Position numbers and translations under genes: made by a program. The notes beneath the pieces are model-generated. The model made no database searches, was not told where the DNA came from, and worked only from the letters and a program-made list of their open reading frames with translations. Of a stretch of 64,000 bases of DNA, positions 1,838 to 61,386 are shown piece after piece. The DNA is taken from positions 1 to 64,000 of the forward strand of contig CALLOA010000098.1 in NCBI GenBank assembly GCA_938005265.1, read 5' to 3'. Origin of the DNA: an uncultured Granulosicoccaceae bacterium (lineage in GTDB: Bacteria; Pseudomonadota; Gammaproteobacteria; Granulosicoccales; Granulosicoccaceae). Within the stretch, counting starts at the first letter, position 1, and every line of letters begins with the position of its first letter.

Positions 1838-2241
1838 GTGGGGCTATCAGTGGGACTGCGAGTGGTTCGATGAGTGGGGCAGCGATTGGCTCTATAAGTG
1901 AGTCTGAATGGCAACCGGTTGGCCGGCTTGAAGATATTCCGGTCAGGGGTGCCAGAAAGCTGGTTCATGGTTCAAGGCGGATCGCTTTGTTTCGCACCGT
2001 AGATGATGCTGTCTTTGCCATTGAAGATCGCTGTCCGCATCAGGCGGGTCCATTAAGCGAAGGTATCGTTCACGATAACTGCGTTACCTGCCCGCTGCAT
2101 AATTGGGTCATTTCTCTTGAAACCGGTACTGCACAGGGTGCAGACAGTGGTAGCACCTCAACCTTTGCTGTGCGAGTAGAGGCGGGTAGTGTAGAAGTCG
2201 AGCTTCCTGTTCTGCCACTTCAGAGTGCTTGCGCATCGTGA
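1834..2241 (+). CDS. nirD: Nitrite reductase small subunit, Rieske type
   Basis: Small partner of NirB. The protein has 135 residues with a NirD-type Rieske fold; C67-x-H69 and C86-x2-H89 are intact, so unlike many NirD proteins, which lack the ligands, this one could bind a [2Fe-2S] cluster. The ATG overlaps the nirB stop by four bases. The first 22 residues are a low-complexity Ser/Gly/Ala stretch encoded by an imperfect 36-bp duplication (MSGA appears twice). An internal ATG at the second MSGA could be an alternative start that would drop this tail. It lies between nirB and nasA in a nitrate-assimilation operon. Confidence 0.93.
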   Translation: MSGAISGTASGSMSGAAIGSISESEWQPVGRLEDIPVRGARKLVHGSRRIALFRTVDDAVFAIEDRCPHQAGPLSEGIVHDNCVTCPLHNWVISLETGTAQGADSGSTSTFAVRVEAGSVEVELPVLPLQSACAS

Positions 2242-2251
2242 ACCCTGTTTT

Positions 2252-5017
2252 ATGAAGCAGAGTGTCAAAACCTGTTGCCCTTATTGCGGTGTTGGCTGTG
2301 GTGTTGTTGCGAATATTGCAGGTTTAAAACCTGATGCTGCCGAGAGCATCAGCATACAGGGTGATGAAACCCACCCGGCCAATTTTGGCAAATTGTGTTC
2401 CAAAGGTTCTGATCTCGCAGCCACGTTAACACCACAGAATCGTTTGTTGTATCCGCTCATCAATGGTTCCAGGTCCAGCTGGGATGCTGCACTTGATTTG
2501 GTCAGTGATAAATTACAGCGCACTATAGATGAGTACGGTGCCGAGTCGGTTGCATTCTATGTGTCTGGCCAGCTGTTGACCGAGGACTATTATGTGGTCA
2601 ATAAATTGGTCAAAGGGTATCTGGGTACAGCCAACATAGATACCAATTCACGATTGTGTATGGCATCAAGTGTTGCCGGGCACAAGCGGGCATTTGGTAG
2701 TGACACAGTACCGGGTTGCTATGACGATATTGAACAGGCAGATCTGGTTGTTCTGACCGGTTCCAATCTGGCGTGGTGCCATCCCATTCTGTTTCAGCGA
2801 CTGCAAGAGGCTAAGAAACGCCGCCCGGCTTTAAAAGTGGTAGGTATTGATCCGCGTATTACCGCAACGTGTGATCTGGCGGATTTACATTTGCAGATCA
2901 AATCCGGCTCGGATATTTCACTTTTCTCGGGTTTATTGTCCTACCTTGCCGAGCATGAGCTACTGGATAACGCTTATATACAGAATCACACCAGCGGTTT
3001 TGAAGATTGTCTGGAGCTAGCAAGCAAAGCTACATCCAGACAGGTATCTGCTGATACAGGAATTCAGGAGTCGCAACTGGCTGAATTCTACCGGCTGTTT
3101 GCTGGCACCCGGAAAGTCGTCACTATTTACAGTCAGGGAGTTAATCAGTCAGAACAGGGCACGGATACCGTCAACAGTATTATCAACTGTCACTTGGCCA
3201 CTGGCAGAATAGGCAGGCCTGGGATGGGGCCGTTTTCCGTAACCGGGCAACCGAATGCCATGGGAGGTCGCGAAGTGGGTGGTTTGAGCAATATGCTCGC
3301 CGCACATATGGAGCTGGCTGAGCCAAGCCATCGGCAACTGGTACAGGAATTCTGGCGCTCACCCAAAATAGCAGACAAGCCCGGGCTAAAAGCTGTGGAC
3401 CTGTTTCAGGCGATTGCCGATAAACAAATCCGCTTCCTGTGGATTATGGCGACCAATCCTGTCGATAGTATGCCGAGGGCTGATTCAGTCAAAGCAGCAC
3501 TCTCATCCTGTGATTTTGTGGTGGTATCCGATATTGTTGAAAACAATGATACGCAAATGTCGGCAGATGTGAGGTTGCCCGCAGCTGCCTGGAGTGAAAA
3601 GGACGGTACAGTCACTAATTCAGAGCGTTGTATCTCGCGCCAGCGTGCCTTTAGAAAACCGTTGGGTGAAGCACGTCCCGACTGGTGGCAGGTAGTACAG
3701 GTTGCCCGCCGATTAGGCTATGCAGATGCGTTCGATTACGAGAAGCCATCTGCGATATTCAGGGAACATGCAGCGCTTTCTGCCTACCGCAACAACGGCA
3801 GGCGCGATTTCGATATTGGTTACTATGAGGGAGTTTCAGACAAGGAATACGATGCGTTGCAGTCTTTCTATTGGCCTGCCAGTAAAACGAGTGAGCCAGC
3901 TGAAAAAATTACTGTAGCAGGTGGCGTAGCTGCAACCGAATCAGTAACAACAATGGCCGCGTCAACCGCAATTACTCCCGTGCGTTTTTTTTCCGATGGC
4001 AATTTTTTTACAGGTAATGCACGGGCGCGTTTTGTTGCGGTAGACGCCAAACCCATTCAAAGAAACAAGAAGGGTTTCCCGCTTATCCTCAATACCGGGC
4101 GAATTCGAGACCAATGGCATACCATGACCCGAACAGGTTACAGCAGCCGCTTGAATTCCCATCTAGCCGAACCTTTTGTACAGATACATCCGGATGATGC
4201 AAGCCGTTACGGAATCAAGGCTGCAGAACTTGTCCAAGTCAGCAGTGAGCATGCGGATGTTGTTGTGCGTGCTCTTGTTACGGAAAAACAATTGCCTGGT
4301 AATGTTTTCGTGCCTATTCATTGGTCAGAACAATTTGCTTCAAATGCACGGGTGGACAAGTTGGTCTCGTCAATTACTGATCCTTTTTCAGGGCAGCCTG
4401 CCTCTAAAAGTGAACCGGTATCGCTCAGCAAGGTTGAGCCGTCTGTCTATGGCTTTGCTGTTTCACGAGTACCCATTCATTCTAACCATGAGCTGATGTA
4501 TTGGGCTGTTGCACCTTGCAGTGATGGTTGGCGAACAGAGTTTGCCAGTGCTTCCGGGCTTGAACAGGAAGTAGCTTACTGGAAAGCTCTGCCATCCGAT
4601 GTTTACGGGCAAGTGGAGGTTGCAGAATTTGCCGATGAAAAAAAAGGTATGTTCAGTCTGGCGGCATTCAGCAAGGATGAATTGCAGTGGGCTGTTTTTC
4701 TTGCTCGAACTCCTGTGTCCGTATCCAGAGTATGGGCGTCACAGCAGCTTCAAGTAAGCCATTCACCAACCACTCGCTCTGTCTTGTTAGCGGGTATCGC
4801 GAGTGCAGAGCGGCCCGATCAGGGGGCCATTGTTTGTTCGTGTTTTATGGTTGGTAGTAACGACATCCGCCTGGCTATCCAGAAACGCAATTGTTTGTCA
4901 GTGGAGGCGATTGGTGAGCATACCAGTGCCGGTACCAATTGCGGTTCCTGTCGTAGCGAAATACGTGGCCTGCTTAAGCAAACGCAAACTAGAGAAATGG
5001 TCTGTTCACCAAGTTGA
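2252..5017 (+). CDS. nasA: Assimilatory nitrate reductase catalytic subunit
   Basis: Cytoplasmic molybdopterin enzyme that reduces nitrate to nitrite for NirBD. I start it at the ATG at 2252 (921 residues), 10 bases after nirD; an in-frame GTG at 2225 would overlap nirD. The N-terminus has the [4Fe-4S] motif C9-x2-C12-x3-C16 with the fourth Cys in GKLCSKG near 50. A Cys in SRLCMASS is the expected Mo ligand of the Nap/Nas class. The molybdopterin dinucleotide-binding domain follows after about residue 600, and a BFD-like [2Fe-2S] domain closes the protein (CSC and NCGSC motifs near the end), typical of NasA. There is no Tat signal, which agrees with an assimilatory role. No nitrate transporter or NasST/NtrBC regulator is inside the window; they may lie upstream. 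Confidence 0.95.
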   Translation: MKQSVKTCCPYCGVGCGVVANIAGLKPDAAESISIQGDETHPANFGKLCSKGSDLAATLTPQNRLLYPLINGSRSSWDAALDLVSDKLQRTIDEYGAESVAFYVSGQLLTEDYYVVNKLVKGYLGTANIDTNSRLCMASSVAGHKRAFGSDTVPGCYDDIEQADLVVLTGSNLAWCHPILFQRLQEAKKRRPALKVVGIDPRITATCDLADLHLQIKSGSDISLFSGLLSYLAEHELLDNAYIQNHTSGFEDCLELASKATSRQVSADTGIQESQLAEFYRLFAGTRKVVTIYSQGVNQSEQGTDTVNSIINCHLATGRIGRPGMGPFSVTGQPNAMGGREVGGLSNMLAAHMELAEPSHRQLVQEFWRSPKIADKPGLKAVDLFQAIADKQIRFLWIMATNPVDSMPRADSVKAALSSCDFVVVSDIVENNDTQMSADVRLPAAAWSEKDGTVTNSERCISRQRAFRKPLGEARPDWWQVVQVARRLGYADAFDYEKPSAIFREHAALSAYRNNGRRDFDIGYYEGVSDKEYDALQSFYWPASKTSEPAEKITVAGGVAATESVTTMAASTAITPVRFFSDGNFFTGNARARFVAVDAKPIQRNKKGFPLILNTGRIRDQWHTMTRTGYSSRLNSHLAEPFVQIHPDDASRYGIKAAELVQVSSEHADVVVRALVTEKQLPGNVFVPIHWSEQFASNARVDKLVSSITDPFSGQPASKSEPVSLSKVEPSVYGFAVSRVPIHSNHELMYWAVAPCSDGWRTEFASASGLEQEVAYWKALPSDVYGQVEVAEFADEKKGMFSLAAFSKDELQWAVFLARTPVSVSRVWASQQLQVSHSPTTRSVLLAGIASAERPDQGAIVCSCFMVGSNDIRLAIQKRNCLSVEAIGEHTSAGTNCGSCRSEIRGLLKQTQTREMVCSPS

Positions 5018-43284: not shown

Positions 43285-43992
43285 ATGACTACCACGCCTG
43301 TCGCACTTGCGAGAGATTTGCCCGTACAGCGAGTTATGAGAGCGCAGGTCGATGGTTGCGATCTGGCCATCTGGCGTGGAATATCCGGGCAAGTGCAGGC
43401 TTGGGAAAATCGCTGTCCTCACCGCGGTATGCGGCTGTCCTATGGCTTTGTCAGGCAAGACAGTCTGGCCTGCGCCTACCACGGTTGGCATTACAACTGT
43501 GAAGCGGTTTGCCACTATATACCGGCTCACCCCGAGCTACAGCCCCCTGCCAGTATAAAACCGGTCACCTACAGTGTTGTCGAGCATCAGGGGGTGCTGT
43601 GGGTCAATACCAGAAATGAAGCCGAGGTGCCGGAATTTCCAGAAGACAGCATTGGCATCCGGAGCATTACCTTTGATTGTCCCTTATCCGTTGCGTTCGA
43701 AGCCTGTCTTGCTGCACAACTCAGTGATGAAGCGGGGTTGAGTCTGTCGCCGCGTCAGCTTGGTGATGCTCCACTAATTCTTTCGTTTGGCAATCAACAG
43801 CAGGCTGATTCTGTTTTGCTACTTTTTCAGCCTTCGGATCTTGCAAACGTTGTTATCCATGTGCTTGCACATCATTCGTACTCTGTTGACGGTCGAATTG
43901 GCATTTCGCAATGGTGTGAGTCAGTTCGACGGCAGGCTGAACTGAATCATGAGGTAGCAATGAATGCCGGGATGGAGTGCACACATGAATAA
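43285..43992 (+). CDS. Stand-alone Rieske [2Fe-2S] protein
   Basis: A 235-residue protein. Residues about 10-110 are a Rieske domain of the ring-hydroxylating-oxygenase type, with intact ligands C44-x-H46 (RCPHRG) and C63-x2-H66 (CAYHGWH). The C-terminal 125 residues resemble no complete catalytic domain and lack iron ligands. The next gene encodes an oxygenase without a Rieske site whose start overlaps this stop by 8 bases, so this protein probably donates electrons to it. The arrangement recalls the extra Rieske domain of NdmD, which serves NdmC in methylxanthine degradation; a reductase domain is missing here. Confidence 0.85.
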   Translation: MTTTPVALARDLPVQRVMRAQVDGCDLAIWRGISGQVQAWENRCPHRGMRLSYGFVRQDSLACAYHGWHYNCEAVCHYIPAHPELQPPASIKPVTYSVVEHQGVLWVNTRNEAEVPEFPEDSIGIRSITFDCPLSVAFEACLAAQLSDEAGLSLSPRQLGDAPLILSFGNQQQADSVLLLFQPSDLANVVIHVLAHHSYSVDGRIGISQWCESVRRQAELNHEVAMNAGMECTHE

Positions 43993-44944
43993 TGGTCTCG
44001 AGTACGCAATGCATGACTGGTACCCGGTTGCAATAGAGGGCGAACTGGAAATCGGGCAATCAAGACAAACACGTTTACTGGGTGAGCAGCTGGAATTGCG
44101 CTGCGATGATAGTGTTTGCGACGCCAGTGTTTGTGACGCCAGTCAGCGTGCTGGCAATACTGGAGACTCTGTTGGCACGATTACTATTTTTTCGAATGGC
44201 CGAAAGTTGCCTGTGCAGCGTGCGTTCAACCATCTCTGGACAACGTTGTCTGAAAAACCGCGTGAGTTGTTTGCTATATCCGAAGCACAGGAACCAGGCA
44301 GGCGCCTGGTGCCTTGTGGCGTTGTCAGGGTAAAGTGTTCGCCATTGCGGGCTGTCGAGAATTTTCTGGATATCGCGCACTTTCCGTTTGTGCATACTGA
44401 TGTGTTGGGGGCGGAACCCCATACTGAAGTTTACAAGTATGACGTTCGTATCGATGATACTGATGATGAAGTGATTGCGAGTAATATCCGTTTTTATCAA
44501 CCGCAGGCATCAAAGTCTTCCTCCGGCGGTATTGAGACACAATACATCTATCGGGTCCCGGCGCCGATGGCAGCTGTGCTTTATAAAACCTGCCCGCCAA
44601 AACCCGAAGCTATGGATGTTATCGCGATTTTTGTACAACCGTTGGATGAAGAGACTTGCAATGTTTGGCCCTGGATGGCTTTGTACGATGATGTCAGTAG
44701 CATGGCCGATCTCATACAGTTTCAACAACTGATATTCCTGCAGGACCGTTCAATTCTGGAAAATCAAATACCTCGTAGACTGCCGCTCGATCCGAAAATG
44801 GAAATTCCAACCCGTGCGGACCTGACATCGGTAGCCTATCGTCGCTGGTTGAAGCGCCACAGCGCCTGGTATGGTGCGCAAATTTCAATTGATTCCCTGC
44901 AAAACCATTCGGAAGGCCCTAATGCTCACGAGTTGGCAGAATGA
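43985..44944 (+). CDS. Rieske-less ring-hydroxylating oxygenase, catalytic subunit (NdmC-like)
   Basis: A 319-residue protein. The N-terminal part has the strand order of a Rieske domain (MHDWYPVAIEG, RLLGEQLEL) but neither CxH nor CxxH. The C-terminal mononuclear-iron domain is intact: N126, D129, H132 and H137 in VENFLDIAHFPFVH, with a candidate carboxylate D244 in FLQDRSILENQ. Such oxygenases demethylate or hydroxylate small heterocycles or aromatic acids. An in-frame 15-bp tandem duplication produces VCDAS twice. It is coupled to the Rieske gene upstream and to the GST gene downstream by ATGA-type overlaps. NdmC-like function is inferred from architecture and neighbours, not from alignment scores. 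Confidence 0.82.
   Translation: MNNGLEYAMHDWYPVAIEGELEIGQSRQTRLLGEQLELRCDDSVCDASVCDASQRAGNTGDSVGTITIFSNGRKLPVQRAFNHLWTTLSEKPRELFAISEAQEPGRRLVPCGVVRVKCSPLRAVENFLDIAHFPFVHTDVLGAEPHTEVYKYDVRIDDTDDEVIASNIRFYQPQASKSSSGGIETQYIYRVPAPMAAVLYKTCPPKPEAMDVIAIFVQPLDEETCNVWPWMALYDDVSSMADLIQFQQLIFLQDRSILENQIPRRLPLDPKMEIPTRADLTSVAYRRWLKRHSAWYGAQISIDSLQNHSEGPNAHELAE
44111..44140 (+). repeat. In-frame tandem 15-bp duplication in the oxygenase gene
   Basis: AGTGTTTGCGACGCC (44111-44125) repeats as AGTGTTTGTGACGCC (44126-44140), one mismatch, encoding VCDAS twice in the position where a Rieske loop would normally be. Confidence 0.9.
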
Positions 44945-45618
44945 CAATCAGGTTTTATAACTATGTGCTTTCCGGAAACTGTTACAAGTTTCGCTTGCTT
45001 GCCAGTTTGTTAGCGGTTGAATACGAATCGGTGGCGGTTGATTTTCATCCTGGAGTTGAGCATAGATCTGAAAAATATTTACGCTTAAACCCGGCTGGAA
45101 CGTTACCCATTCTGCAAGCAGATGGTCGGGTGTTTACCGAAACACAGGCGATGTTGGTCTGGCTGGCCAGTAAACATGATAAAAGTGGTGCATGGTGGCC
45201 TGAAAAAAACAGTGACGCTATTGTTCAAGTCATGCAGTGGTTGGGTTTTGCAGCGCGTTTGAGTGCTACGGTCGGTGAACTGCGATTGCATAGTATGTTG
45301 AATAAAGATATCGATGCTGCTGCAGCCAAAGCTGGCGCGATTAAGGCACTGCGCGAATTGGAAGCTCATTTGGTGCAGCAACAAATTCGCGGAGAACAGT
45401 GGTTGGGAGCAAATTCCCCAACGGTAGCTGACATAGCCTGTTTCCCGTACACAGCACTGAGTCCCGATGCCGGTATTGAGCATGACGCTTTTCCTGCTAT
45501 TCGCCAATGGCTGTATGCGGTTCGCAGTCTGGACGGATTTGTCACCATGCCCGGTATTCATGAATTACATGAGCAGCGCGACGAACAATCACCTGCTGCT
45601 GAAACGAAAACCTCATGA
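44941..45618 (+). CDS. Glutathione S-transferase-fold protein (NdmE-like)
   Basis: A 225-residue GST. The thioredoxin-fold N-domain (MTIRFYNYVLSGNCYKFRLL, then NPAGTLPILQADGRVFTETQAM with cis-Pro and the SNAIL-like TETQA loop) is followed by the helical C-domain (EQWLGANSPTVADIACFPY). It lies between the oxygenase and the deaminase with four-base overlaps on both sides. In the caffeine-degrading bacterium Pseudomonas putida CBB5 a GST homologue, NdmE, is a structural part of the NdmCDE N7-demethylase. The same role is proposed here; free detoxification is the alternative. Confidence 0.85.
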   Translation: MTIRFYNYVLSGNCYKFRLLASLLAVEYESVAVDFHPGVEHRSEKYLRLNPAGTLPILQADGRVFTETQAMLVWLASKHDKSGAWWPEKNSDAIVQVMQWLGFAARLSATVGELRLHSMLNKDIDAAAAKAGAIKALRELEAHLVQQQIRGEQWLGANSPTVADIACFPYTALSPDAGIEHDAFPAIRQWLYAVRSLDGFVTMPGIHELHEQRDEQSPAAETKTS

Positions 45619-47000
45619 AATATACGCTGTTTAAATCCTGCGATGCCATCGTTAGTTGTGATGATGCGCATACTGTCTACAGAGACGCTGATTTGCTGGT
45701 GTCGGGTAACGCAATCAGCCGAATAGGCAGCTCAATCGCAGAACATGAGTTACCCGAAGGCACGAAGGTGATTGATGCGCGCGGGCATTTTGTCTACCCG
45801 GGGTTGGTTAATACGCACCACCATTTCTTTCAGTGTTTTGTACGTAATCATGCCTTTCTTGATTGGACCAAGCTGTCCCTGATTGAGTGGCTGGATCTGA
45901 TTTATCCGATATTCAGCCGGCTTGATGAAGAGTGTTTCTATCATGCATCGCTGGCAGCTATGGGCGAGCTTATCAAGCACGGTTGTACTACCGCGTTTGA
46001 CCATCAATACAATTTTCCGCGACATGCTGGCACACGTATTATTGACCGCCAGTTTGAAGCGGCAGACTTGTTGGGAATGCGCTTTCATGCCGGGCGCGGA
46101 GGCAATACCCTGCCAAAGTCTGAAGGCAGCACTATTCCGGATGAAATGTGTGAGTCAACAGATGAATTTATCGCTGATTGTGCACGCTTGATAGACAGCT
46201 TTCACAATCCTGATCGCTTCAGTATGCGACAGGTTGCGGTTGCACCCTGCCAACCGGTGAACTGCTACCGTGATACTTTTGTTGAATCTGTGTCACTTGC
46301 GCGAGACAAACGGGTGTTGTTGCACAGCCATGTGGGTGAAGGGGAAAGTGAAGTTATCTTTAGTCGTTTTGGCCAGCGCACAGTTGATTGGTGTGAAGCG
46401 ATCGATTTTGTTGGTGAAGACGTCTGGTTTGCGCATTGTTGGGAACTGGATCACAAGGAAATCAAGCAATTGTCGGAGACTCTTACCGGAGTTTCTCATT
46501 GCCCGGAACCCGTTTATCTGGTGGGTGCTGAAGTGACGCCACTTGCCGAGATGCAAGCCGCTGGTGTGCGCATCGGTTTGGGTGTTGATGGTGCGGCCTC
46601 GAACGATAATTCGAACCTGATGCACTGCATACACAGCGCCTATATGCTGCAGGCTTTGGTTGCAGGGCGCCATGATTTCGCTGTCCCTGAACCGCGTGAA
46701 TTCCTTCAATATGCGACGCGTGGTGGTGCTGCATTGCTGCAACGGCCGGAATTGGGCTCACTGGCTGTGGGACAGGCGGCGGATTTGTTTATAATTGATA
46801 CACGGAAAATGGAATATGTGGGAGCGCGGCATGATCCGGCGAGCCTGCCAGCTAAACTCGGTATTGGCAGCCCGGTTGATTTGACCATGATTAACGGGAA
46901 AATAGTCTGGCAGCATGGTGAGTTCGTTGGGCTGGATGAGCACAAGTTAATGGCAGATGCTGAAGCTCATGTGGAGCGTGTGGTGTACAGCAATTTGTAG
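45615..47000 (+). CDS. COG0402 amidohydrolase, probable (modified) purine deaminase
   Basis: A 461-residue metal-dependent deaminase of the guanine/8-oxoguanine deaminase/TrzN group. HxH (NTHHHFFQ, 68 and 70), HSHVGEGE, AHCWEL and GLGVDGAASND carry the metal and catalytic residues. The substrate-side segment that reads HCPSSNM in 8-oxoguanine deaminases is changed to HCPEPVYLVGAE, and the following VNQPLF-type loop is also different, so it probably acts on another purine. It is the last gene of the Rieske-oxygenase-GST operon (ATGA overlap). Confidence 0.85.
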   Translation: MKYTLFKSCDAIVSCDDAHTVYRDADLLVSGNAISRIGSSIAEHELPEGTKVIDARGHFVYPGLVNTHHHFFQCFVRNHAFLDWTKLSLIEWLDLIYPIFSRLDEECFYHASLAAMGELIKHGCTTAFDHQYNFPRHAGTRIIDRQFEAADLLGMRFHAGRGGNTLPKSEGSTIPDEMCESTDEFIADCARLIDSFHNPDRFSMRQVAVAPCQPVNCYRDTFVESVSLARDKRVLLHSHVGEGESEVIFSRFGQRTVDWCEAIDFVGEDVWFAHCWELDHKEIKQLSETLTGVSHCPEPVYLVGAEVTPLAEMQAAGVRIGLGVDGAASNDNSNLMHCIHSAYMLQALVAGRHDFAVPEPREFLQYATRGGAALLQRPELGSLAVGQAADLFIIDTRKMEYVGARHDPASLPAKLGIGSPVDLTMINGKIVWQHGEFVGLDEHKLMADAEAHVERVVYSNL

Positions 47001-47030
47001 GCCTTTGGAATTCCTCAGGCCTGTTGGTAT

Positions 47031-47075
47031 TACCGGCTCCACATTTACCGGCTCTGCATTTACCTGCTTTACTTT
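47031..47075. repeat. Three tandem 15-bp repeats
   Basis: TACCGGCTCCACATT, TACCGGCTCTGCATT and TACCTGCTTTACTTT, in the gap between the deaminase and the BMP gene. The copies decay progressively, which suggests old slippage duplications. Confidence 0.85.
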
Positions 47076-47164
47076 TCATACTCGGCCAAAGAGCCGGGAG
47101 CCAATTTTTATTTGTAATCTTATTTACTAATTTTAGTTATTAAACAAGGGTGAGACTTTTACGC

Positions 47165-48244
47165 ATGATTAAAAAAATAGCAAAACGCCTGGCGACCGTA
47201 GCGGTAGCTGCAGTCATGGTGCAAAACGTTGCCAGTGCCGAAACGCTGGAAGTCGGCATACTGTTACCTTCACCGATTGCTGATGTGGGCTGGTCACATG
47301 CATTGGTCGCAGGTATGGATGCGGTCAAGGCCAAACATGGTGACAAGGTTAATTTCAATGTAGTTGAGAACATCCAGGAAGGCCCGGATGCAGATCGCAT
47401 CATGAACAAGATGGTAGGTGATGGTGCTGAATTTCTGTTGCTGGGATCTTTCGGTTATATGAATGGTGGTTTGAAGCTTGCCAAGCGCAACCCCGAACGC
47501 AGTTTCGTTCATGCATCAGGTTACAAAGTGGCTGACAATTTCTCACCTTTTACCGCCAAGTATTATGAAGGCGCTTATCTAATGGGAATGGCTGCAGCAG
47601 ATCTGACTAAAACCAAGAAGCTGGGTGTGGTTTCGGCGTTCGCCATTCCTGAACTGATTTCGACTATTAACGGATTTACGCTTGGCGCACGCAGCGTTGA
47701 CCCGGAGATCACCGTCGATGTTATCTGGATCAATTCCTGGTTCGATCCGGCAAAGGCGCAGGATTCAGCCAAAGCCTTGCTCGCTAATGGTGCCGATATT
47801 CTTTTCTCTAACGCACAAGACACCCCTTCGGTTGTATCTGTAGGTGAGGAAAACGGTGCTTATGTTTTTAACCTGAACAGTTCCATGAAAGAGTATGCTC
47901 CTACCAAGTATCTCGGTGTTGTGAAAACCGATTGGGCCCCGTTTTTTGTAGCGTCTGTTGATGCTCATTTGGCCGGTAATTTTGAGGGCGCCAACCAGTG
48001 GCTGGGAATGCAGGATGACGTTGTTGTGGTCGAAGACTGGAGCGATGATATTAGTGCTGAAATGAAAGACAAGATTAAGGCGAAGCAGGATGAAATTGCT
48101 TCTGGTGCTGTGCATGTCTATGACGGGCCACTGACAAATCAGGCTGGTGAAGAAGTTGTGGCTGCGGGTTCCAGGCTGGAAGATGGTGCCATTCTTGGTA
48201 TTGACTGGCATGTAGAAGGCATTAACTCTCCACTACCCAAGTAG
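47165..48244 (+). CDS. BMP-family ABC transporter substrate-binding protein
   Basis: A 359-residue periplasmic binding protein (signal peptide to about VASA). The BMP family (PnrA/Med) binds nucleosides, nucleobases or related ligands. Typical stretches are VGILLPSPIADVGWSHAL, GFGY-like SFGYMNGGL, YYEGAYLMGMAAA and VVKTDWAPFF. Together with the ATPase and two permeases downstream it forms a complete importer. The neighbouring deaminases favour a purine ligand. Confidence 0.92.
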   Translation: MIKKIAKRLATVAVAAVMVQNVASAETLEVGILLPSPIADVGWSHALVAGMDAVKAKHGDKVNFNVVENIQEGPDADRIMNKMVGDGAEFLLLGSFGYMNGGLKLAKRNPERSFVHASGYKVADNFSPFTAKYYEGAYLMGMAAADLTKTKKLGVVSAFAIPELISTINGFTLGARSVDPEITVDVIWINSWFDPAKAQDSAKALLANGADILFSNAQDTPSVVSVGEENGAYVFNLNSSMKEYAPTKYLGVVKTDWAPFFVASVDAHLAGNFEGANQWLGMQDDVVVVEDWSDDISAEMKDKIKAKQDEIASGAVHVYDGPLTNQAGEEVVAAGSRLEDGAILGIDWHVEGINSPLPK

Positions 48245-48440
48245 GTGGGGATTGCGGGGCATGATTCGCGTTCAAGTTGCGTTTGCAGCTATTGTTGTGG
48301 CGTATCGAAAGCGCGTTGTGTCCCGTTTTACTTCGTGTCCCGCCTTATATGTTGAGTATCTACTGTGCTTTGCTATGGCTTGCATAACAGAAACTTGCAG
48401 CAAGAAGCTCGTCCAATCCCGGGCGCTTGCCACTTTCATA

Positions 48441-48475
48441 GCTGAACAAAGCCGAACAAAGCTGAACAAAGCTGA
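48441..48475. repeat. Tandem 10-bp repeats before the ABC ATPase gene
   Basis: GCTGAACAAA, GCCGAACAAA, GCTGAACAAA and a partial GCTGA follow each other, 38 bp upstream of the ATPase start. The 268-bp gap they occupy otherwise holds nothing visible. Confidence 0.9.
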
Positions 48476-48512
48476 TTTAGTATTGCACCCCCGGTATTTG
48501 AATTGAGTAATA

Positions 48513-50078
48513 ATGCCTTCCGTTGAACCCGTTTCTGCTGATTCCGAACCACTGCTGTCGCTACGTAATATCACTAAAGCGTATCCTTCGGTTGTAGCCA
48601 ATGACAGTATCAATCTGGATGTGCATGCTGGCTCCATCCATGCAATTCTGGGTGAAAACGGTGCTGGTAAATCCACGTTAATGAAACTCGCCTATGGGGT
48701 TGTCGAGCCCGATAGTGGGGAGATTCTATGGCGCAATAAACCTGTGGACCTGCGAAGCACGGCAGCAGCTAGAAAGTTGGGCATTGGTATGGTGTTTCAG
48801 CATTTCTCGCTCTTTGAGACACTCAGTGTGGTTGAAAATATCTCGCTGACGATGCCGGGCTCAAGAAAAAAACTAGCCAGGCGTATCGCACAAGTAGGTG
48901 CTGATTATGATTTGCATGTCGACCCGGCAGCATCGGTACATTCTCTGTCGGTGGGTGAGCGTCAACGTGTGGAGATCATTCGTTGTTTGATGCAAGATTT
49001 AAAACTGTTAATTCTGGATGAGCCCACGTCGGTCTTACCACCGCAGCATGTCAGTTCACTGTTCGCAGCGTTGCGAAAGCTTCGCGATAATGGTGTGGCC
49101 ATTCTGTTTATCTCACATAAACTCGAAGAAATTCGTGCCCTTTGTGACAGCGCGACCATTCTCAGGGGTGGGAAAGTCGCTGCCACGGTAAATCCAAACG
49201 AGAAAACTGCACATGAGTTAGCCACGTTAATGATAGGACACGATATCCCGCAGGTGGAAGCACGGGCGAATCAGGTAGATCTAAACAAGCCTTTACTGGA
49301 GTTGTCTGCTGTTAGTGTCAAGAGCAGTGACCCCTTCGGCACTGATCTGAAGAACATCAATCTTTCCGTGCATGCCGGCGAAATTGTCGGTGTAGCCGGT
49401 GTGTCAGGTAATGGGCAGCAGGAACTTTCCCGTTTGATCTCCGGAGAACATGTTGAAACATCTGCGGCTTTTGATTGCATTCGCATGATGGATAAACCGG
49501 TTACGTACCTTGGTGCTGTAGATCGGCGACAGCTTGGCTTTGCTTTCGTGCCGGAAGAACGATTGGGGCGCGGTGCGGTACCGCCAATGTCGCTATCCAA
49601 AAATTCCTTGTTAACGGCCTCCGACAAGGGGATGCATAGAAAAGGTTTTCTTAATAAGCCACGCATGGATGAATTCACGCAACACTGTATCAAGGAGTTT
49701 GATGTGCGTTGTGGTGGTGTGGAGGCTGAGGCTACGTCTCTCTCGGGTGGTAATCTGCAAAAGTTTATTGTGGGCCGCGAGCTTTCATTGCAACCCAAGC
49801 TCTTGTTTCTTTCACAACCGACTTGGGGAGTGGATATTGGTGCGGCGACTGCCATCCGGCAACGGTTGCTTGATTTGCGTGATGCTGGTGTCGCCATATT
49901 GGTAATCTCAGAAGAGCTGGAGGAGTTATTTGAAATTACTGACAGGGTTTATGTCATCCGAAGTGGCACATTGTCACCTTCGCTAGTCACGTCTGATGTG
50001 ACACCAAACGATATTGGCAAATACATGATTGGCGAGCAACAACAAGCAAGCGTTACGGGGGGATCTCATGCAACTTAG
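48513..50078 (+). CDS. ABC importer ATPase, double domain (nucleoside/sugar type)
   Basis: A 521-residue protein with two ABC domains: the first has GENGAGKSTLM, the LSVGERQRVEII signature and LLILDEPTSVL; the second has the weak P-loop GVSGNGQQEL, signature LSGGNLQKF and LFLSQPTWGVD. The degenerate second site is normal for the CUT2/BMP family. It overlaps the first permease gene. Confidence 0.93.
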   Translation: MPSVEPVSADSEPLLSLRNITKAYPSVVANDSINLDVHAGSIHAILGENGAGKSTLMKLAYGVVEPDSGEILWRNKPVDLRSTAAARKLGIGMVFQHFSLFETLSVVENISLTMPGSRKKLARRIAQVGADYDLHVDPAASVHSLSVGERQRVEIIRCLMQDLKLLILDEPTSVLPPQHVSSLFAALRKLRDNGVAILFISHKLEEIRALCDSATILRGGKVAATVNPNEKTAHELATLMIGHDIPQVEARANQVDLNKPLLELSAVSVKSSDPFGTDLKNINLSVHAGEIVGVAGVSGNGQQELSRLISGEHVETSAAFDCIRMMDKPVTYLGAVDRRQLGFAFVPEERLGRGAVPPMSLSKNSLLTASDKGMHRKGFLNKPRMDEFTQHCIKEFDVRCGGVEAEATSLSGGNLQKFIVGRELSLQPKLLFLSQPTWGVDIGAATAIRQRLLDLRDAGVAILVISEELEELFEITDRVYVIRSGTLSPSLVTSDVTPNDIGKYMIGEQQQASVTGGSHAT

Positions 50079-51159
50079 ATTCGAGAAACGCCTGCATCAA
50101 TCAAAAATCATGTTGTTGGCGGCACCCTTCATAGCTATCGCTCTGTCGGTTGTCTTGTCCTGCATACTTCTGGTGGTATTAAAAAAGCCGATACTGCTCA
50201 CCTTTCATTCCTTTTTTATCGCACCCTTTGAAAATTTTTATTCGATTACCGAGATCTTTCTGAAGTTCGGGCCATTGCTGTTGATAGCCCAGGCGTTGGC
50301 TGTTGGATTTCGCGCAAAAATCTGGAATATCGGTGCCGAAGGGCAGATGGTAATCGGTGCGATTGCTGCCAGTGCAGTGCCTGTTTATTTTGTAGACAGC
50401 ACTTCAGGTTGGTTGTTGCCTGCGATGATTGTACTGGGTGCCCTTGGGGGGATGGCCTGGGCCGCAATTGCGGCTTTCCTGCGCACTCAATTTAACGCTA
50501 ACGAGATTCTGGTTACGCTGATGTTGACCTCAATTGCTTTGCAATTGTTGTATTTCCTGCTGCTTGGCCCTTGGAAAGATCCGATGGGTTTTAATTTTCC
50601 ACAAACGGTCATGTTTCAGGATGAGGCATTATTTCCGGCGTTGTTTTCAGGGGTGCGCTTAAACGTATCCATTATATTTCCAATCCTGTTCACCATTGCG
50701 GTGTGGCTGTTTATGGAAAAGCATTATGGCGGCTATAAACTGGTGGTGGGTGGTCTGGCACCATCGGCTGCCGGCTATGCAGGTTTCAGTTCCAAAAAAG
50801 CTGTTTGGGGCAGCTTGTTGCTGGCAGGTTTTGCCGCCGGTATCGCCGGTATGAGTGAAGTCGCGGGACCTATCGGTCAGTTGCAACGTTCGATGACCTC
50901 CGGCTACGGTTACTCGGCAATTATTGTTGCCTATCTGGGTGCGTTGAACCCGATCGGCATTGTGTTTGCCGCTTTTTTTCTTGCTGTCCTACATATCGGA
51001 GGGGACGTAGCACTGGTGTCAGCGGGCCTGCCGATTAGTGCCGTTCACATATTTCAAGGAATGATATTAATTTTCTATTTGTCCGCTTATGCTTTTGTTA
51101 ATTATCGTCTGCGAGTTGTTCAGCCTGTAACTCAACCTGATTCGGCGGTCTCATCATGA
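50068..51159 (+). CDS. BMP-type ABC importer permease 1
   Basis: A 363-residue membrane protein of the BPD_transp_2 family with about ten hydrophobic segments; the motif NIGAEGQMVIGAIAA is typical for this importer class. I start it at the ATG at 50068, which overlaps the ATPase stop by 11 bases. The second permease overlaps its end by four bases. Confidence 0.9.
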   Translation: MQLRFEKRLHQSKIMLLAAPFIAIALSVVLSCILLVVLKKPILLTFHSFFIAPFENFYSITEIFLKFGPLLLIAQALAVGFRAKIWNIGAEGQMVIGAIAASAVPVYFVDSTSGWLLPAMIVLGALGGMAWAAIAAFLRTQFNANEILVTLMLTSIALQLLYFLLLGPWKDPMGFNFPQTVMFQDEALFPALFSGVRLNVSIIFPILFTIAVWLFMEKHYGGYKLVVGGLAPSAAGYAGFSSKKAVWGSLLLAGFAAGIAGMSEVAGPIGQLQRSMTSGYGYSAIIVAYLGALNPIGIVFAAFFLAVLHIGGDVALVSAGLPISAVHIFQGMILIFYLSAYAFVNYRLRVVQPVTQPDSAVSS

Positions 51160-52082
51160 GTACTCTTGAATTTTTCCTTGCCGGTACGCTAAGTGCTGCG
51201 ACAGTTTTTCTTTTGGCAGCCCTTGGTGAGCTGGTTGTTGAGAAGTCAGGGTTATTGAATCTGGGTGTGGAAGGGATGATGGCTGTCTCGGCTGCTGTTG
51301 GTTTTGTGGTAACTTTTGAAACCGGTAGCCACATCTGGGGTTTTGCACTGGCCGGTTTGTCCGGAGTCGTTATTTCCATGGTGTTTGCTGTGGTCGCCAT
51401 TACTTTTCTGGCCAATCAGGTAGCAACAGGTCTGGCGGTGGGAATCATGGGCTTGGGTTTATCTGCGTTGATCGGACGCGAATACGAAAGCCGTACAATT
51501 ACCTCTCCGGCGGATCTTGTTATCCCTTATCTAAGCGACCTGCCGCTGCTCGGGCCGGTTTTGTTTCAGCAAAATATAGTGGTGTATCTGACTTTTTTAC
51601 TGGCAGTTGTTATTGGCTACACCCTGACCCATACACGTTTGGGGTTGGCAATACGGTCCGTTGGAGAGCAGCCGTCTGCCGCACATGCTCTGGGTTTCCC
51701 GGTTTATCTGATTCGTTACGCAACTGTAGCGTTCGGTGGTCTACTGGCAGGGTTTGCGGGTGCTTATGCATCCACTATTTACACACCTTTGTGGGCTGAT
51801 GGCATGATTGCCGGGCGTGGCTGGATTGCGGTAGCGCTGGTAGTTTTTGGGACCTGGAAAACCGGACGTGTAGCGTTTGGTGCTTTATTGTTCGGAATGA
51901 TTTCCTTAGGGGAGCTTATAGCTCAGTCGATGGGAGCCAGAATTCCCTCGCAATTACTCTCAAGTCTGCCATACATCGTCACGATAATTGTTCTGGCCAT
52001 GATTTCTACCAATAAAGCTCGAATGAAATTGCATGCGCCATTTTCCCTCGGTGAGGTTTATGACGGATCAGAAGGGCGATAA
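51156..52082 (+). CDS. BMP-type ABC importer permease 2
   Basis: A 308-residue partner permease; NLGVEGMMAVSAAVGF and RSVGEQPSAAHALG are characteristic of the BMP/ribose permease family. It is co-translated with permease 1 through an ATGA overlap and is the last gene of the operon; the next gene is convergent. Confidence 0.9.
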   Translation: MSTLEFFLAGTLSAATVFLLAALGELVVEKSGLLNLGVEGMMAVSAAVGFVVTFETGSHIWGFALAGLSGVVISMVFAVVAITFLANQVATGLAVGIMGLGLSALIGREYESRTITSPADLVIPYLSDLPLLGPVLFQQNIVVYLTFLLAVVIGYTLTHTRLGLAIRSVGEQPSAAHALGFPVYLIRYATVAFGGLLAGFAGAYASTIYTPLWADGMIAGRGWIAVALVVFGTWKTGRVAFGALLFGMISLGELIAQSMGARIPSQLLSSLPYIVTIIVLAMISTNKARMKLHAPFSLGEVYDGSEGR

Positions 52083-52145
52083 GATTTCCGGGCGAGGAGT
52101 AAACGAAACACCAGGGCTGAACCAATCAGTTTTAATCAGTGTTAT

Positions 52146-53537
52146 TCAATTTTGTACGGACTCAAGTGGTTGAAAACGGCGCGCTATAGATTTGTGTTGC
52201 GTCAGCATATCCTGGATTCGGGGTGATACCAGCTCACCGTTTTGTACAATGATGTTACCGTTGACAACCGTATGCCAGGCCGACGTCGGGCCACATCGCA
52301 GCCAACCTTCAATAGGGTCATTCAATACACCTGCGTGACCCACTCCGTCCATTTTCCATACAGCTACGTCACCTGCAGCACCTACTGACAGCTCGCCGAT
52401 TTCGCCCACACGACCAAGGCAGCCAGCGCCGCCACGCGTTGAAATTTCCAGCGAGAGCCTTGCATTCATGGCATCCGCTCCTGAAACCAGCTTACCTTGC
52501 AGCATCGCAAGCCTTGCTTCCTGCCACATTGAAGCGGCATCTGCCGATGATGAGCCATCGCAACCCAGGCCTACGGGGCAACCTGCATGATGCAATTTGA
52601 CTGTCGGTGCCAGTCCGGAAGCCAGAATCATATTCGAGCTCGGGCAATGCGCAACTCCGACGCCTGCCTGGCCAAGCCTCACTATCTCGGTGTCATCGGG
52701 TTTAACAACATGTGCACCCCAGGTGCGATCATTCATCCAGCCCACATCTTCAAGTAACTCGACTGGCCGCATACCAAAGGTACGCAGAGCGTACTCTGTG
52801 TCTTCGTCGTTTTCAGCCAAGTGGGTGTGTAGCCTCACGTCCAGCTTGCGGGCAAGCTCTGCCGTTTCTTTCATTAAATGTGGCGTTACAGAAAACGGTG
52901 AACAGGGTGCCAGGGCTATTTTGATCATGGCGTTATGGGAATCGTCGTGCCAGCGTTTTACATGTGATTCGGATGCGCTGAGTATGTCCTCTTCCTGCAT
53001 TACAGCGTTGTCGGGTGGAAGACCGCCATCTTTTTGTGACAGCGACATGGAGCCATAGGTGGGGTGAAAACGCATGCCGAGTTCTTGTGCCGCCTTGATT
53101 TCGGCCGACAATAAATCACCGGCACGGGGTGGGTGTAAATAGTGATGATCAGAGCTGGTCGTGCAGCCAGACAAAGCAAGTTCTGCAAGACCAATCCAGG
53201 CCGCGGTATACACAGCTTCTTCGTCCAGGTTATCTGTCCATAAGGGGTAGAGCGTTTGCAGCCAGCCGAACAAAGGTTTGGATGTCATGGGTGTGTAGGC
53301 ACGGGTCAGATTCTGATAGAGATGATGATGAGTGTTTATCAGGCCCGGGGTCACCAGGCAATCCTGTGCGGATAGCACCTTGTTGCCGTGTGGCATGGAA
53401 TCGTTGATTCCACCTATCGCGACTATTACGCCGTTAGTGATAGCTAGCCACCCGCTGGTGATTTCGCGCCGGTCCTTGTCAACAGTTGCGACCAGGTTTG
53501 CGTCTTTGATTAACAGGTCGGCGGTTTGGTTATTCAC
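52146..53537 (-). CDS. 8-oxoguanine deaminase-like amidohydrolase
   Basis: A 463-residue COG0402 enzyme. Compared from memory with the characterised Pseudomonas 8-oxoguanine deaminase (Pa0142), key stretches agree closely: NTHHHLYQNLTRAYTP, DHHYLHPP, RFHPTYGSMSLSQKDGGLPP, IALAPCSPFSVTP, LHTHLAEND, HCPSSNMILASG and GLGCDGSSS. It probably deaminates 8-oxoguanine or a related 2-aminopurine/isocytosine to a urate-type product. It lies convergent to the BMP importer and 91 bases after the flavin amine oxidase gene on the same strand. Confidence 0.9.
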   Translation of the reverse strand: MNNQTADLLIKDANLVATVDKDRREITSGWLAITNGVIVAIGGINDSMPHGNKVLSAQDCLVTPGLINTHHHLYQNLTRAYTPMTSKPLFGWLQTLYPLWTDNLDEEAVYTAAWIGLAELALSGCTTSSDHHYLHPPRAGDLLSAEIKAAQELGMRFHPTYGSMSLSQKDGGLPPDNAVMQEEDILSASESHVKRWHDDSHNAMIKIALAPCSPFSVTPHLMKETAELARKLDVRLHTHLAENDEDTEYALRTFGMRPVELLEDVGWMNDRTWGAHVVKPDDTEIVRLGQAGVGVAHCPSSNMILASGLAPTVKLHHAGCPVGLGCDGSSSADAASMWQEARLAMLQGKLVSGADAMNARLSLEISTRGGAGCLGRVGEIGELSVGAAGDVAVWKMDGVGHAGVLNDPIEGWLRCGPTSAWHTVVNGNIIVQNGELVSPRIQDMLTQHKSIARRFQPLESVQN

Positions 53538-53628
53538 GATTCAGGGTGGTTTGCAGGTTTGGGTTTATGAAATCAGGTTGCAATGAGCCAGGCTAGTCGT
53601 AACGTTTGCCAGCCTGCCAGCCGCGGAT

Positions 53629-54969
53629 TTACAAACAGGCTAAAACTTCTTTGGCGGCACGCTCTGATGAGCGTAACGCTCCATCTACGTAGCCCGGATT
53701 TATCTCGGCTGTTTCAGTGCCAGCCCAATGAATTCTGCCACAGGGATGCGCCAGCGTATCACCGAAAACGCTAAAACTTCCAGGCTGGGACGAGCAGGAA
53801 TAGCCACCCTCAATCCAGGGTTCCAATGGCCACACGTTTTCGATGTAGTCCTGCGGTGTATGTGCTTGCCTGCCAAATACTGATGCCAGATCTGCTTTCA
53901 CCTGATCACATCGCTTCTGTTTAGTGGTATCTGACCAGATCATTGCCGTATCACCACCGATAAATCCTGCCAATATACCTCCAGTATAGTCAGGTGGTGT
54001 TATGTCTTGAAAGGCGTTTGTTATGGTTGATGTCAGATTGCCATGACCGCTGTAGCCCTGGTTGCGCCAGAACGGGGTTGGGTAGGCTATCAGGCATTTG
54101 ATAATACTGCCCATCGGCATCCGTTCCATGCAACCGGATTTTGTAAAAGGCAAAGGCGGTGTGAAATCTATGCGTGTGGCGACCGGTGGAGGGGCTGTGA
54201 TGATCACGCGTTGGGCTTTGCAGGTGATCTTATCGCTTACCACCGTGACGGATGAAGAATCCTGGGAGACGCTGCGTACGGGTGATTGCAGTATCAGTTC
54301 GTCCTGGTCAAGTTCGGCCGCCATGTGCAGGGCCAGTTGAAAGAAACCGTCCTTGAAACAATGCTGCAGCGCGCCATCGTTTATCCGTAATTCTTCATCT
54401 ATGGTTTGTTCGATAAAACTGCTGAAAAAATCCAGCATGGATAATTGGCAGGGGTGTTTGGTGAAAAATCCACGTATAACAGTGGTCAGATAGGCGCGAG
54501 CTTGAACGTCTTCAATATTTTGATTTAACCAGCTCTCGGTCGTGGATCTGTCCCAGGCTAGGGTGTCCTCGCTGTCCCAGAATCCCGGACGATGTATTTT
54601 TTCAACCCACTGCTCGATGACTTTATAGGGAGATCTGACAACTCTTTCAAATACTTCGGGATCATTTTCTTCTGTGTAAATTTCACCATCCAGTTCCAGT
54701 ATGTTGTTGCCAAATGTGGGGGTGACGTAGGTATCCATGCCATAGCGTTCTGCGACTCTGTAGCTATGGTCTTGCCCTTTACCTACCCATTGGCCACCGA
54801 GATCAACGCTTTTACCGTCAAGCACACCACCCTTGAGCCGGCCGCCGACGCGATCATTGGCTTCGAGAATCACAACCGATTTGCCCGCATCACGAAGAGT
54901 GAGTGCCGCCCAGAGTCCAGCCACTCCTGCGCCGACAACGATTACGTCAATGTTGGGTTCAGATTTCAT
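53629..54969 (-). CDS. Flavin-containing amine oxidase
   Basis: A 446-residue FAD enzyme from the ATG at 54969. The N-terminal Rossmann motif VVGAGVAGLWAALTLRDAGK is followed by VVILEANDRVGGR; the C-terminus has GRIHWAGTETAEINPGYVDGALRSSE, typical of monoamine/polyamine oxidases. No signal peptide is seen, so it is cytoplasmic. Substrate unknown; since deaminase 2 follows on the same strand they may be co-transcribed. Confidence 0.85.
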   Translation of the reverse strand: MKSEPNIDVIVVGAGVAGLWAALTLRDAGKSVVILEANDRVGGRLKGGVLDGKSVDLGGQWVGKGQDHSYRVAERYGMDTYVTPTFGNNILELDGEIYTEENDPEVFERVVRSPYKVIEQWVEKIHRPGFWDSEDTLAWDRSTTESWLNQNIEDVQARAYLTTVIRGFFTKHPCQLSMLDFFSSFIEQTIDEELRINDGALQHCFKDGFFQLALHMAAELDQDELILQSPVRSVSQDSSSVTVVSDKITCKAQRVIITAPPPVATRIDFTPPLPFTKSGCMERMPMGSIIKCLIAYPTPFWRNQGYSGHGNLTSTITNAFQDITPPDYTGGILAGFIGGDTAMIWSDTTKQKRCDQVKADLASVFGRQAHTPQDYIENVWPLEPWIEGGYSCSSQPGSFSVFGDTLAHPCGRIHWAGTETAEINPGYVDGALRSSERAAKEVLACL

Positions 54970-55173
54970 GGGAAGGAGCTGATTGTTGCGGTCAATTTGC
55001 ACAGAATGATCAATATAATCAGTAAAGGCAATACCTCTTATGATTATCTTGATGTGGCCTATGTACATACCGGGAACCTGATGAATTGCCTGTCCACTAG
55101 GCATGGACCGGGAAAACAGTTAGATTGCCCCTGCTGATATTTGCAATACTTATTGAATTTCGTTGGTGTTTGT

Positions 55174-60129: not shown

Positions 60130-61386
60130 TTGAAGCGTCATAGTTGGCCCGAGAATCACTGGCACTGGCCGGTGGAGCTGACGCATCAGCATGGGGTGCG
60201 TTGCAGGGACTTGGTGTTTACCGGTGGACAGGCTGATCTCGACAAAAAGGGTAATGTCGTTAATCCTGAATTACTTAAACCTCAATGTAAAAATGTGATT
60301 GGGTTTGTCAGGGATATTCTGTATGACCTTGATGCATCGCTTGAGCACGTAGTTCGATGGGTTGTGTACTTTGTCGGTGATGCAACAGATGAAGCCTACA
60401 TTTTGTCACAGCTTGACAAAGCAACATCTGACAACTGTATGCCCACAGTATCAACCGTCTGTCTGCCCGCGCTGTGTTACCCCGGCATGAGAATAGAGCT
60501 GGAAGCCATTGCCTGGTGTCCTGAAACGAATTCCGCTGCACCGAATTCTGCCGCAACGAATGCCGCTGCAACGAATGCCGCAAGCCTCCCTCACTATGCT
60601 TATGATGAAACTTTACCCATGCTTGCACCGGGTTTCTCTCATGCCGTTCGCTGTAACGATCTGATTTTTACCAGTGATTGTTCTGCAACAGGGCCATCAG
60701 GTGATGTCGCGAGTCCCGGTAATCTGCTCGCACAGACAGAGCTGATGATGGATACACTGGAACGCACATTAGGTCTTGTGGGTGCCACGCTCGCGGACGT
60801 ACTCAAGTTAAACGTGTTCTACCAAGGAGACGGCACGGCTGAAAACTGGGCGGAGCCTGCGCTTATTCGGGCTTCACGTTTTCCTGATCCAGGGCCTGCT
60901 GCAACCGGCATAGCTGTACCGGGTTTTTCTCTTCCCGGACTGATGACCAAAATTGCAGTCACTGCTGGTGTTGAAGCGCTAGAGGTTGATCGCGATTTTG
61001 CCTGGCCTGAGGGTCATTGGGACTGGACTGAGAAGTTGCCTTACAAGCATGGTAACCGCTTTAAACGATTGATTCATTTGGGTGGTCAGGTGGCCCTGGA
61101 TCAGAATGCAAATGTTATACATCCCGATAACATGGTTGAGCAGACTCGCGTAGCAATGCAAAATATTGAATCCGTATTGGCGGAGCTGGGTGGAACACTT
61201 GCGGATGTTGTGAAGGTGACTACCTTCTACCAAGGCAATGCATCGGCTGCTGCCTTGCACGAAAATCTGCTGATACGATCAGGCTCCTATCAATTTCCCG
61301 GTCCTGCCACTTCTGGCATTCCGGTAACTCACCTGGTCTATGAATCGATGCTGATTGAAATTGAAGTTATCGCCATGCTGAATTGA
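60130..61386 (+). CDS. Triple RidA (YjgF/Rid) domain fusion
   Basis: A 418-residue protein from a TTG start, 57 bases after the RCC1-like gene. Three RidA-type domains follow each other (about 5-135, 155-285 and 290-418), each with the pattern LIHLGGQVALD, TLADVVKVTTFYQG and ending IELEAIA or IEIEVIA. The Arg of the ARLP motif that RidA uses for imine hydrolysis is absent in all three (CLPAL, AVPGF and PVTHL at that place), so it belongs with the non-RidA Rid subfamilies and may not have enamine deaminase activity. Domains 1 and 3 resemble each other most (WPEGHW, WPENHW). A repetitive Asn/Ala linker joins 1 and 2. Confidence 0.82.
   Translation: MKRHSWPENHWHWPVELTHQHGVRCRDLVFTGGQADLDKKGNVVNPELLKPQCKNVIGFVRDILYDLDASLEHVVRWVVYFVGDATDEAYILSQLDKATSDNCMPTVSTVCLPALCYPGMRIELEAIAWCPETNSAAPNSAATNAAATNAASLPHYAYDETLPMLAPGFSHAVRCNDLIFTSDCSATGPSGDVASPGNLLAQTELMMDTLERTLGLVGATLADVLKLNVFYQGDGTAENWAEPALIRASRFPDPGPAATGIAVPGFSLPGLMTKIAVTAGVEALEVDRDFAWPEGHWDWTEKLPYKHGNRFKRLIHLGGQVALDQNANVIHPDNMVEQTRVAMQNIESVLAELGGTLADVVKVTTFYQGNASAAALHENLLIRSGSYQFPGPATSGIPVTHLVYESMLIEIEVIAMLN
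60526..60585 (+). repeat. Four tandem 15-bp repeats encoding an Asn/Ala linker
   Basis: ACGAATTCCGCTGCA, CCGAATTCTGCCGCA, ACGAATGCCGCTGCA and ACGAATGCCGCAAGC follow each other in frame and encode the TNSAA-type linker between RidA domains 1 and 2. Confidence 0.92.

Follow-up and report, generated by a model that had tools for sequence, protein, structure and literature searches.

The DNA examined here, positions 43285-54969 of a window of 64,000 nucleotides from a bacterium of the family Granulosicoccaceae, carries an eight-gene operon which, we consider it likely, imports and degrades methylated guanine bases by hydrolysis at C2 and N-demethylation, with xanthine as the product. The genes code, in this order, for a stand-alone Rieske protein (RSK), an oxygenase of the NdmC lineage without a Rieske cluster (OXY), a glutathione S-transferase homologue (GST), an amidohydrolase (AMH1), and the BMP-family binding protein, ATPase and two permeases which make up a complete ATP-binding cassette (ABC) importer. 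The first four genes each overlap with the next. Open reading frames (ORFs) and Pfam matches bear out a preliminary description of four overlapping genes followed by a BMP importer, and all genes named in it exist with the named domains (Table 1). Judged from its orthologues, OXY probably starts at the ATG at 43985 and not at 43964.

The arrangement is widely conserved. Among the best 80 relatives in the genome collection, with hosts from Granulosicoccaceae, Rhizobiales and Rhodobacterales, RSK-OXY-GST is kept in every locus and all eight genes in 65; the other 15 loci are broken by contig ends or represent variant operons. The identical eight-gene order was recovered within Granulosicoccaceae and also on plasmids of Rhizobium, Shinella and Qingshengfaniella, and AMH1 occurs at 60-80% identity on 128 plasmids. 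These counts argue against a chance association, and RSK-OXY-GST-AMH1-BMP-ATPase-permease-permease is a single operon.

The proposed relationship of the oxygenase to NdmC is supported by our tree, where OXY and NdmC from genuine ndm clusters share one clade of 30 rows (support 100/98), while NdmA, NdmB and HpxD fall outside. A grouping with vanillate- or betaine-type enzymes instead of NdmC, the test set in advance, did not occur. The iron motif N-x2-D-x2-H-x4-H...D is intact, its residues (N133, D136, H139, H144, D261) are invariant among orthologues, and the N-terminal domain is a remnant without Rieske ligands. OXY is not of the VanA type, as VanA has both sites in one polypeptide, and the VanA_C match reflects the shared catalytic fold. 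It was also rejected as an HpxD-type single-chain xanthine hydroxylase, since HpxD forms a separate clade (99/96). The AlphaFold model of OXY (predicted local distance difference test, pLDDT, 82.6) matches GxtA (1e-18) and NdmA (5e-13) in Foldseek; we regard GxtA and SxtT as similar in fold only and not as functional relatives. Sister to the OXY/NdmC clade is a canonical one-chain oxygenase, whose gene is flanked by those for a BMP protein and an adenosine deaminase in two genomes from another family.

A separate Rieske partner like NdmD had been expected as well. The Rieske protein is present, but it is not a full NdmD: with 235 residues and, according to Pfam, Rieske as its sole domain, RSK lacks the reductase and is equivalent only to the first part of an NdmD-type protein. 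Proteins of NdmD architecture (Rieske, FAD, NAD, ferredoxin; 585-640 residues) do occur in sister operons of the same family. The Rieske ligands of RSK (CPH..CxYHGW) are invariant in 42 orthologues. Its AlphaFold model (pLDDT 94.4) has a helix-grip domain, the last helix of which is long; this represents a shrunken catalytic domain without the iron site. The model matches whole Rieske oxygenases in Foldseek (GxtA, E 3e-16; NdmA, TM-score 0.73 by query length). In hhalign, the NdmD region that follows the Rieske domain aligns with the catalytic domain of the oxygenase (87%, E 4e-6). The isolated C-terminus of RSK had no significant match to oxygenase profiles (3.8% probability), while the homologous NdmD region and the RSK structure model did match. 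Because of these two matches to the oxygenase fold, RSK and OXY seem to descend from a single ancestral subunit, present in two copies which have degenerated reciprocally, with complementary cofactor sites lost. The third component, GST, shares 38-41% identity with NdmE proteins from genuine ndm clusters and, being present in 80 of 80 loci, is the GST homologue that the comparison with NdmCDE had called for. By analogy, it may act as a scaffold holding the RSK-OXY pair.

The position of the reductase varies among the relatives: it is fused to the Rieske protein (NdmD), fused to the oxygenase (Variovorax), encoded separately like all other components (Komagataeibacter), or absent, as in the window operon. 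On the Variovorax plasmid (L053:7289-10436), the NdmC-type oxygenase carries the reductase and the Rieske protein stands alone. A Komagataeibacter plasmid from kombucha (L050:4917-11468) has two sets of stand-alone Rieske protein, oxygenase and GST with a separate reductase and adjoining NdmA/B-like genes; this is possibly a methylxanthine pathway in split form. The genome to which the window belongs codes, on contig C2 (L082:7173-9380), for a cytochrome P450, identified by eye from the translation, which is fused to a FAD/NAD/ferredoxin reductase with 40% identity to the reductase half of NdmD.

The operon deaminase AMH1 had been described as a COG0402 deaminase; it is not of the 8-oxoguanine deaminase type. 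The corresponding model, NF006055, has a curated cut-off of 532 bits, and AMH1 reaches only 407.9 bits, compared to 587.9 bits for AMH2, which is encoded next to the operon. AMH1 has instead the specificity residues of NdmH, a family of N2,N2-dimethylguanine hydrolases described in 2026 (PMC13054789). The active site of the enzyme from Pleomorphomonas oryzae (poNdmH) is built from C213, Q214, N217 and N165 (referred to as CQNN) together with W85, W93, Y98, Y133, Q74, E243, H275, P300 and D326 (PMC13054789). All 13 residues are identical in 68 of 68 AMH1 orthologues; in AMH1 from the window the published numbers are shifted by minus 1, while AMH1 from within the Pleomorphomonas operon has them at exactly the published positions. 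In the Pleomorphomonas genus group the gene is found in 5 of 14 genomes, always between GST and BMP. Five of the 13 residues are missing from AMH2. On the strength of residues and genus, AMH1 is predicted to be an NdmH-type methylguanine hydrolase. NdmH enzymes are promiscuous, with kcat/KM values of about 1e5-1e6 on N2,N2-dimethylguanine, and are 150-3600-fold worse on guanine (PMC13054789). The main text of that paper reports no genomic or physiological context, and its authors state that the physiological context is under investigation. The atrazine enzyme AtzB, which is 55% identical to AMH1, is said to descend from NdmH and shows the published exchange to SSII at the CQNN sites (PMC13054789).

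Variant operons and neighbouring genes point to purine metabolism. In place of AMH1, the NdmD-type sister operons and three operons with a stand-alone Rieske protein have a guanine deaminase, and in R. tumorigenes a guanine deaminase is found beside OXY. The genes xdhA, xdhB and xdhC are located immediately upstream of RSK-OXY-GST in a marine Rhodobacteraceae cell, a gene pair of the xanthine dehydrogenase family lies a few kilobases from the cluster in S. meliloti, and in Qingshengfaniella there is an allantoinase near the operon. The guanine deaminases from islands of the sister clade are divergent second copies (388-414 bits versus 530-625 bits for the canonical copies). Elsewhere, the genome of the window codes for a guanine deaminase of the housekeeping type (610 bits) and for a xanthine dehydrogenase (1137 bits), and it is therefore more likely that the operon enzyme serves something other than plain guanine.

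For the importer, the best PDB matches of the BMP protein are the guanine-binding AtzT (2e-72) and 3S99 (2e-70), in which adenine has been modelled. AtzT binds guanine at 0.11 micromolar (PMC6834077), and the BMP protein is about 36% identical to it. Among nine site residues compared, S97, F98, E165, W194 and N218 are kept and four others are changed; a guanine-like base is the likely ligand. Of the uptake function suggested previously, a purine-type ligand is likely, but free bases are more likely than nucleosides. The 2-aminopurine route of the preliminary description gains support from the guanine deaminase variants, the trio adjacent to xdhABC, the NdmH residues and the AtzT-like BMP protein, and 7-methylguanine specifically is a plausible substrate. 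On the whole the preliminary description pointed the right way, and the corrections concern the deaminase, the neighbouring genes and the Rieske protein.

We propose that the importer would capture free guanine-type bases, as its binding-site residues suggest. AMH1, with its complete set of active-site residues, would strip the amino or methylamino group from C2 by metal-dependent attack of water, giving xanthine, or a methylxanthine if the ring is methylated too. OXY may then hydroxylate a ring N-methyl group, upon which formaldehyde would leave and xanthine would remain, to be passed on to xanthine dehydrogenase. The most likely position is N7, because OXY is of the NdmC lineage and 7-methylxanthine is the known substrate of NdmCDE (PMC4408171). 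Following the model of NdmCDE, RSK would hand electrons to OXY and the NdmE-like GST would keep the pair together, with a reductase from outside the operon feeding RSK. We infer the order of steps, the methyl position and the electron donor, but import, C2 hydrolysis, N-demethylation and release of xanthine together explain every conserved gene by a function with precedent.

Several observations weigh against this pathway. Identity between OXY and NdmC is only 44-46%, and the sequence does not fix the methyl position. No conserved reductase gene was found within about 9 kb of the operon in the 80 loci, and the sole strong match to an NdmD-type reductase in the genome of the window (assembly about 91% complete) is part of a P450 fusion. 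The activity shown for NdmH is on N2,N2-dimethylguanine and not on ring-methylated guanines (PMC13054789). Finally, the BMP protein departs from the AtzT site at Y45 (W, still aromatic), T139 (A), N169 (T) and N220 (D).

Other functions have to be considered. RNA breakdown commonly yields 7-methylguanine, which might be the only substrate and would lose its methyl group, giving guanine, before it is deaminated. Both the NdmC lineage of OXY and the guanine deaminase of variant operons would fit, but the poor activity of NdmH enzymes on guanine speaks against it. Hosts that already have a canonical guanine deaminase would also have no use for another enzyme acting on plain guanine, and the island copies are the divergent ones; we therefore regard this restricted version as unlikely. 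OXY might, on the other hand, hydroxylate the purine ring at C8 like HpxD, the molybdenum-independent xanthine hydroxylase, so that methylguanine or guanine would be converted to the 8-oxo form, from which deamination would yield a urate. HpxD is a family-related Rieske oxygenase which acts on purines, and there is an HpxD-like gene beside one trio (L111). The tree, however, groups OXY with NdmC, the residues of AMH1 are those of NdmH and not of 8-oxoguanine deaminase, and molybdenum-dependent xanthine dehydrogenase is present in the host and, in one case, directly in front of the trio. Hydroxylation at C8 thus appears distinctly unlikely.

The similarity to purine enzymes might also be merely inherited, with OXY acting on an N-alkyl group, exocyclic or in a side chain, of some ligand which is not a nucleobase (a pterin, an s-triazine-like compound or another heterocycle). 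AtzB is among the relatives of AMH1, whose family is promiscuous (PMC13054789), and among solved structures RSK and OXY come closest to GxtA and SxtT, which are oxygenases for guanidinium compounds. Against this, AMH1 has the CQNN of the natural enzymes and not the SSII of AtzB, guanine deaminase and xanthine dehydrogenase are neighbours in variant operons, and the AtzT-type guanine site is largely kept in the BMP protein. We consider such a ligand very unlikely.

Degradation of methylated guanine bases, the function that we prefer, amounts to the prediction of a bacterial catabolic route for these products of RNA turnover. In the literature we found no described route and nothing relevant on catabolism of 7-methylguanine via a Rieske enzyme or a demethylase. 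The operon provides the first genomic context for the NdmH family, and as NdmH is placed together with an importer and a demethylase, its role becomes directly testable. It also exemplifies a split Rieske oxygenase, with two related subunits that each lack the cofactor of the other and a reductase which is fused, separate or absent in relatives, and it suggests an origin for AtzB. A more daring idea, which we hold only tentatively and with considerable doubt, is that the operon serves specifically to degrade hypermethylated guanine derived from RNA, for instance the N2,N2,7-trimethylguanine of small nuclear RNA caps. NdmH would remove dimethylamine to give 7-methylxanthine, which RSK/OXY and GST would demethylate at N7 to xanthine, and AtzB, perhaps AtzT too, would have been recruited from systems of this type as their natural reservoir. 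It is speculation that N2,N2,7-trimethylguanine would use both activities in turn.

Table 1. Genes of the operon and its downstream neighbours (window positions).
Feature	Position	Strand	Support and remarks
RSK, stand-alone Rieske [2Fe-2S] subunit	43285..43992	+	Pfam Rieske 6e-19
OXY, NdmC-type non-heme iron oxygenase	43985..44944	+	Pfam VanA_C 3.5e-20; ORF opens at 43964
GST, NdmE-like glutathione S-transferase fold protein	44941..45618	+	Pfam GST domains
AMH1, COG0402 amidohydrolase, predicted NdmH type (AtzB-progenitor type)	45615..47000	+	Pfam Amidohydro_1
BMP-family (PnrA-like) periplasmic binding protein of importer	47150..48244	+	Pfam Bmp 3.8e-40
Double-domain ABC ATPase of importer	48513..50078	+	ABC_tran 5.5e-44; order conserved
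Permease 1	50068..51159	+	BPD_transp_2 1.1e-34; ORF listed from TTG 50029, ATG 50068 likelier
Permease 2, final operon gene	51156..52082	+	BPD_transp_2 8.8e-30
AMH2, 8-oxoguanine deaminase family, neighbour only	52146..53537	-	NF006055 588 bits
FAD amine oxidase, neighbour	53629-55104	-	ORF at these coordinates

The 8-oxoguanine deaminase AMH2 had been counted as part of the island, but it is not conserved with the operon. It is absent from eight of eight trio loci compared, and in the 80 loci there are only two AMH2-type matches and one match to the FAD amine oxidase. Both genes were rejected as operon parts because they are mostly absent beside the operon elsewhere, and the functional unit thus ends at 52082. 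As a true 8-oxoguanine deaminase beside an amine oxidase on the minus strand (52146-55104), they are possibly a separate purine-related pair.

At the other end, the gene directly before RSK in Shinella, R. leguminosarum and Qingshengfaniella (L047:8955-9224, L048:8925-9191, L178:5462-5713) codes for an acylphosphatase, and many rhizobial loci have a small ORF resembling acylphosphatase at this position. Downstream of the Qingshengfaniella operon (L178:14163-17365) there are genes for a YcaQ-type DNA glycosylase, a GntR regulator, a flavin reductase and the allantoinase. Elsewhere in the window, 60130-61386 codes for a single chain with three L-PSP/RidA-type stretches, and 59-5017 has a row of genes which probably serve assimilatory nitrate reduction: part of a nitrite reductase, a small Rieske protein (1906-2142) and a molybdopterin oxidoreductase.

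The closest known system is NdmCDE, the 7-methylxanthine N7-demethylase of Pseudomonas putida CBB5. It shares with the window system a Rieske-less oxygenase, a GST partner and a Rieske domain supplied by another protein, whose catalytic region is degenerate. The window system would work like NdmCDE but misses one defining feature, the Rieske-reductase fusion: RSK does not have the FMN/NAD/ferredoxin reductase half (235 versus about 590 residues). In addition, the operon has a different transporter and a different deaminase, and there are no ndmA/B and no formaldehyde genes. Homologous ndmCDE clusters of unknown function from Sinorhizobium and others (PMC4408171) have the same core of OXY, Rieske protein and GST but retain the fusion, while the window type combines a stand-alone Rieske protein with NdmH. 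The OXY-NdmD-GST clusters of Granulosicoccaceae are accompanied by a BMP importer and a guanine deaminase. With NdmH (PMC13054789) AMH1 shares all 13 active-site residues, a likeness known from sequence. AtzB, the hydroxyatrazine hydrolase, differs from AMH1 in its SSII, and AtzT, the guanine/hydroxyatrazine binding protein, differs from the BMP protein at the four positions given above. The 8-oxoguanine deaminase of Pa0142 type belongs to the same amidohydrolase superfamily as AMH1, but AMH1 fails both the cut-off and the specificity residues, and it is AMH2 that represents this enzyme.

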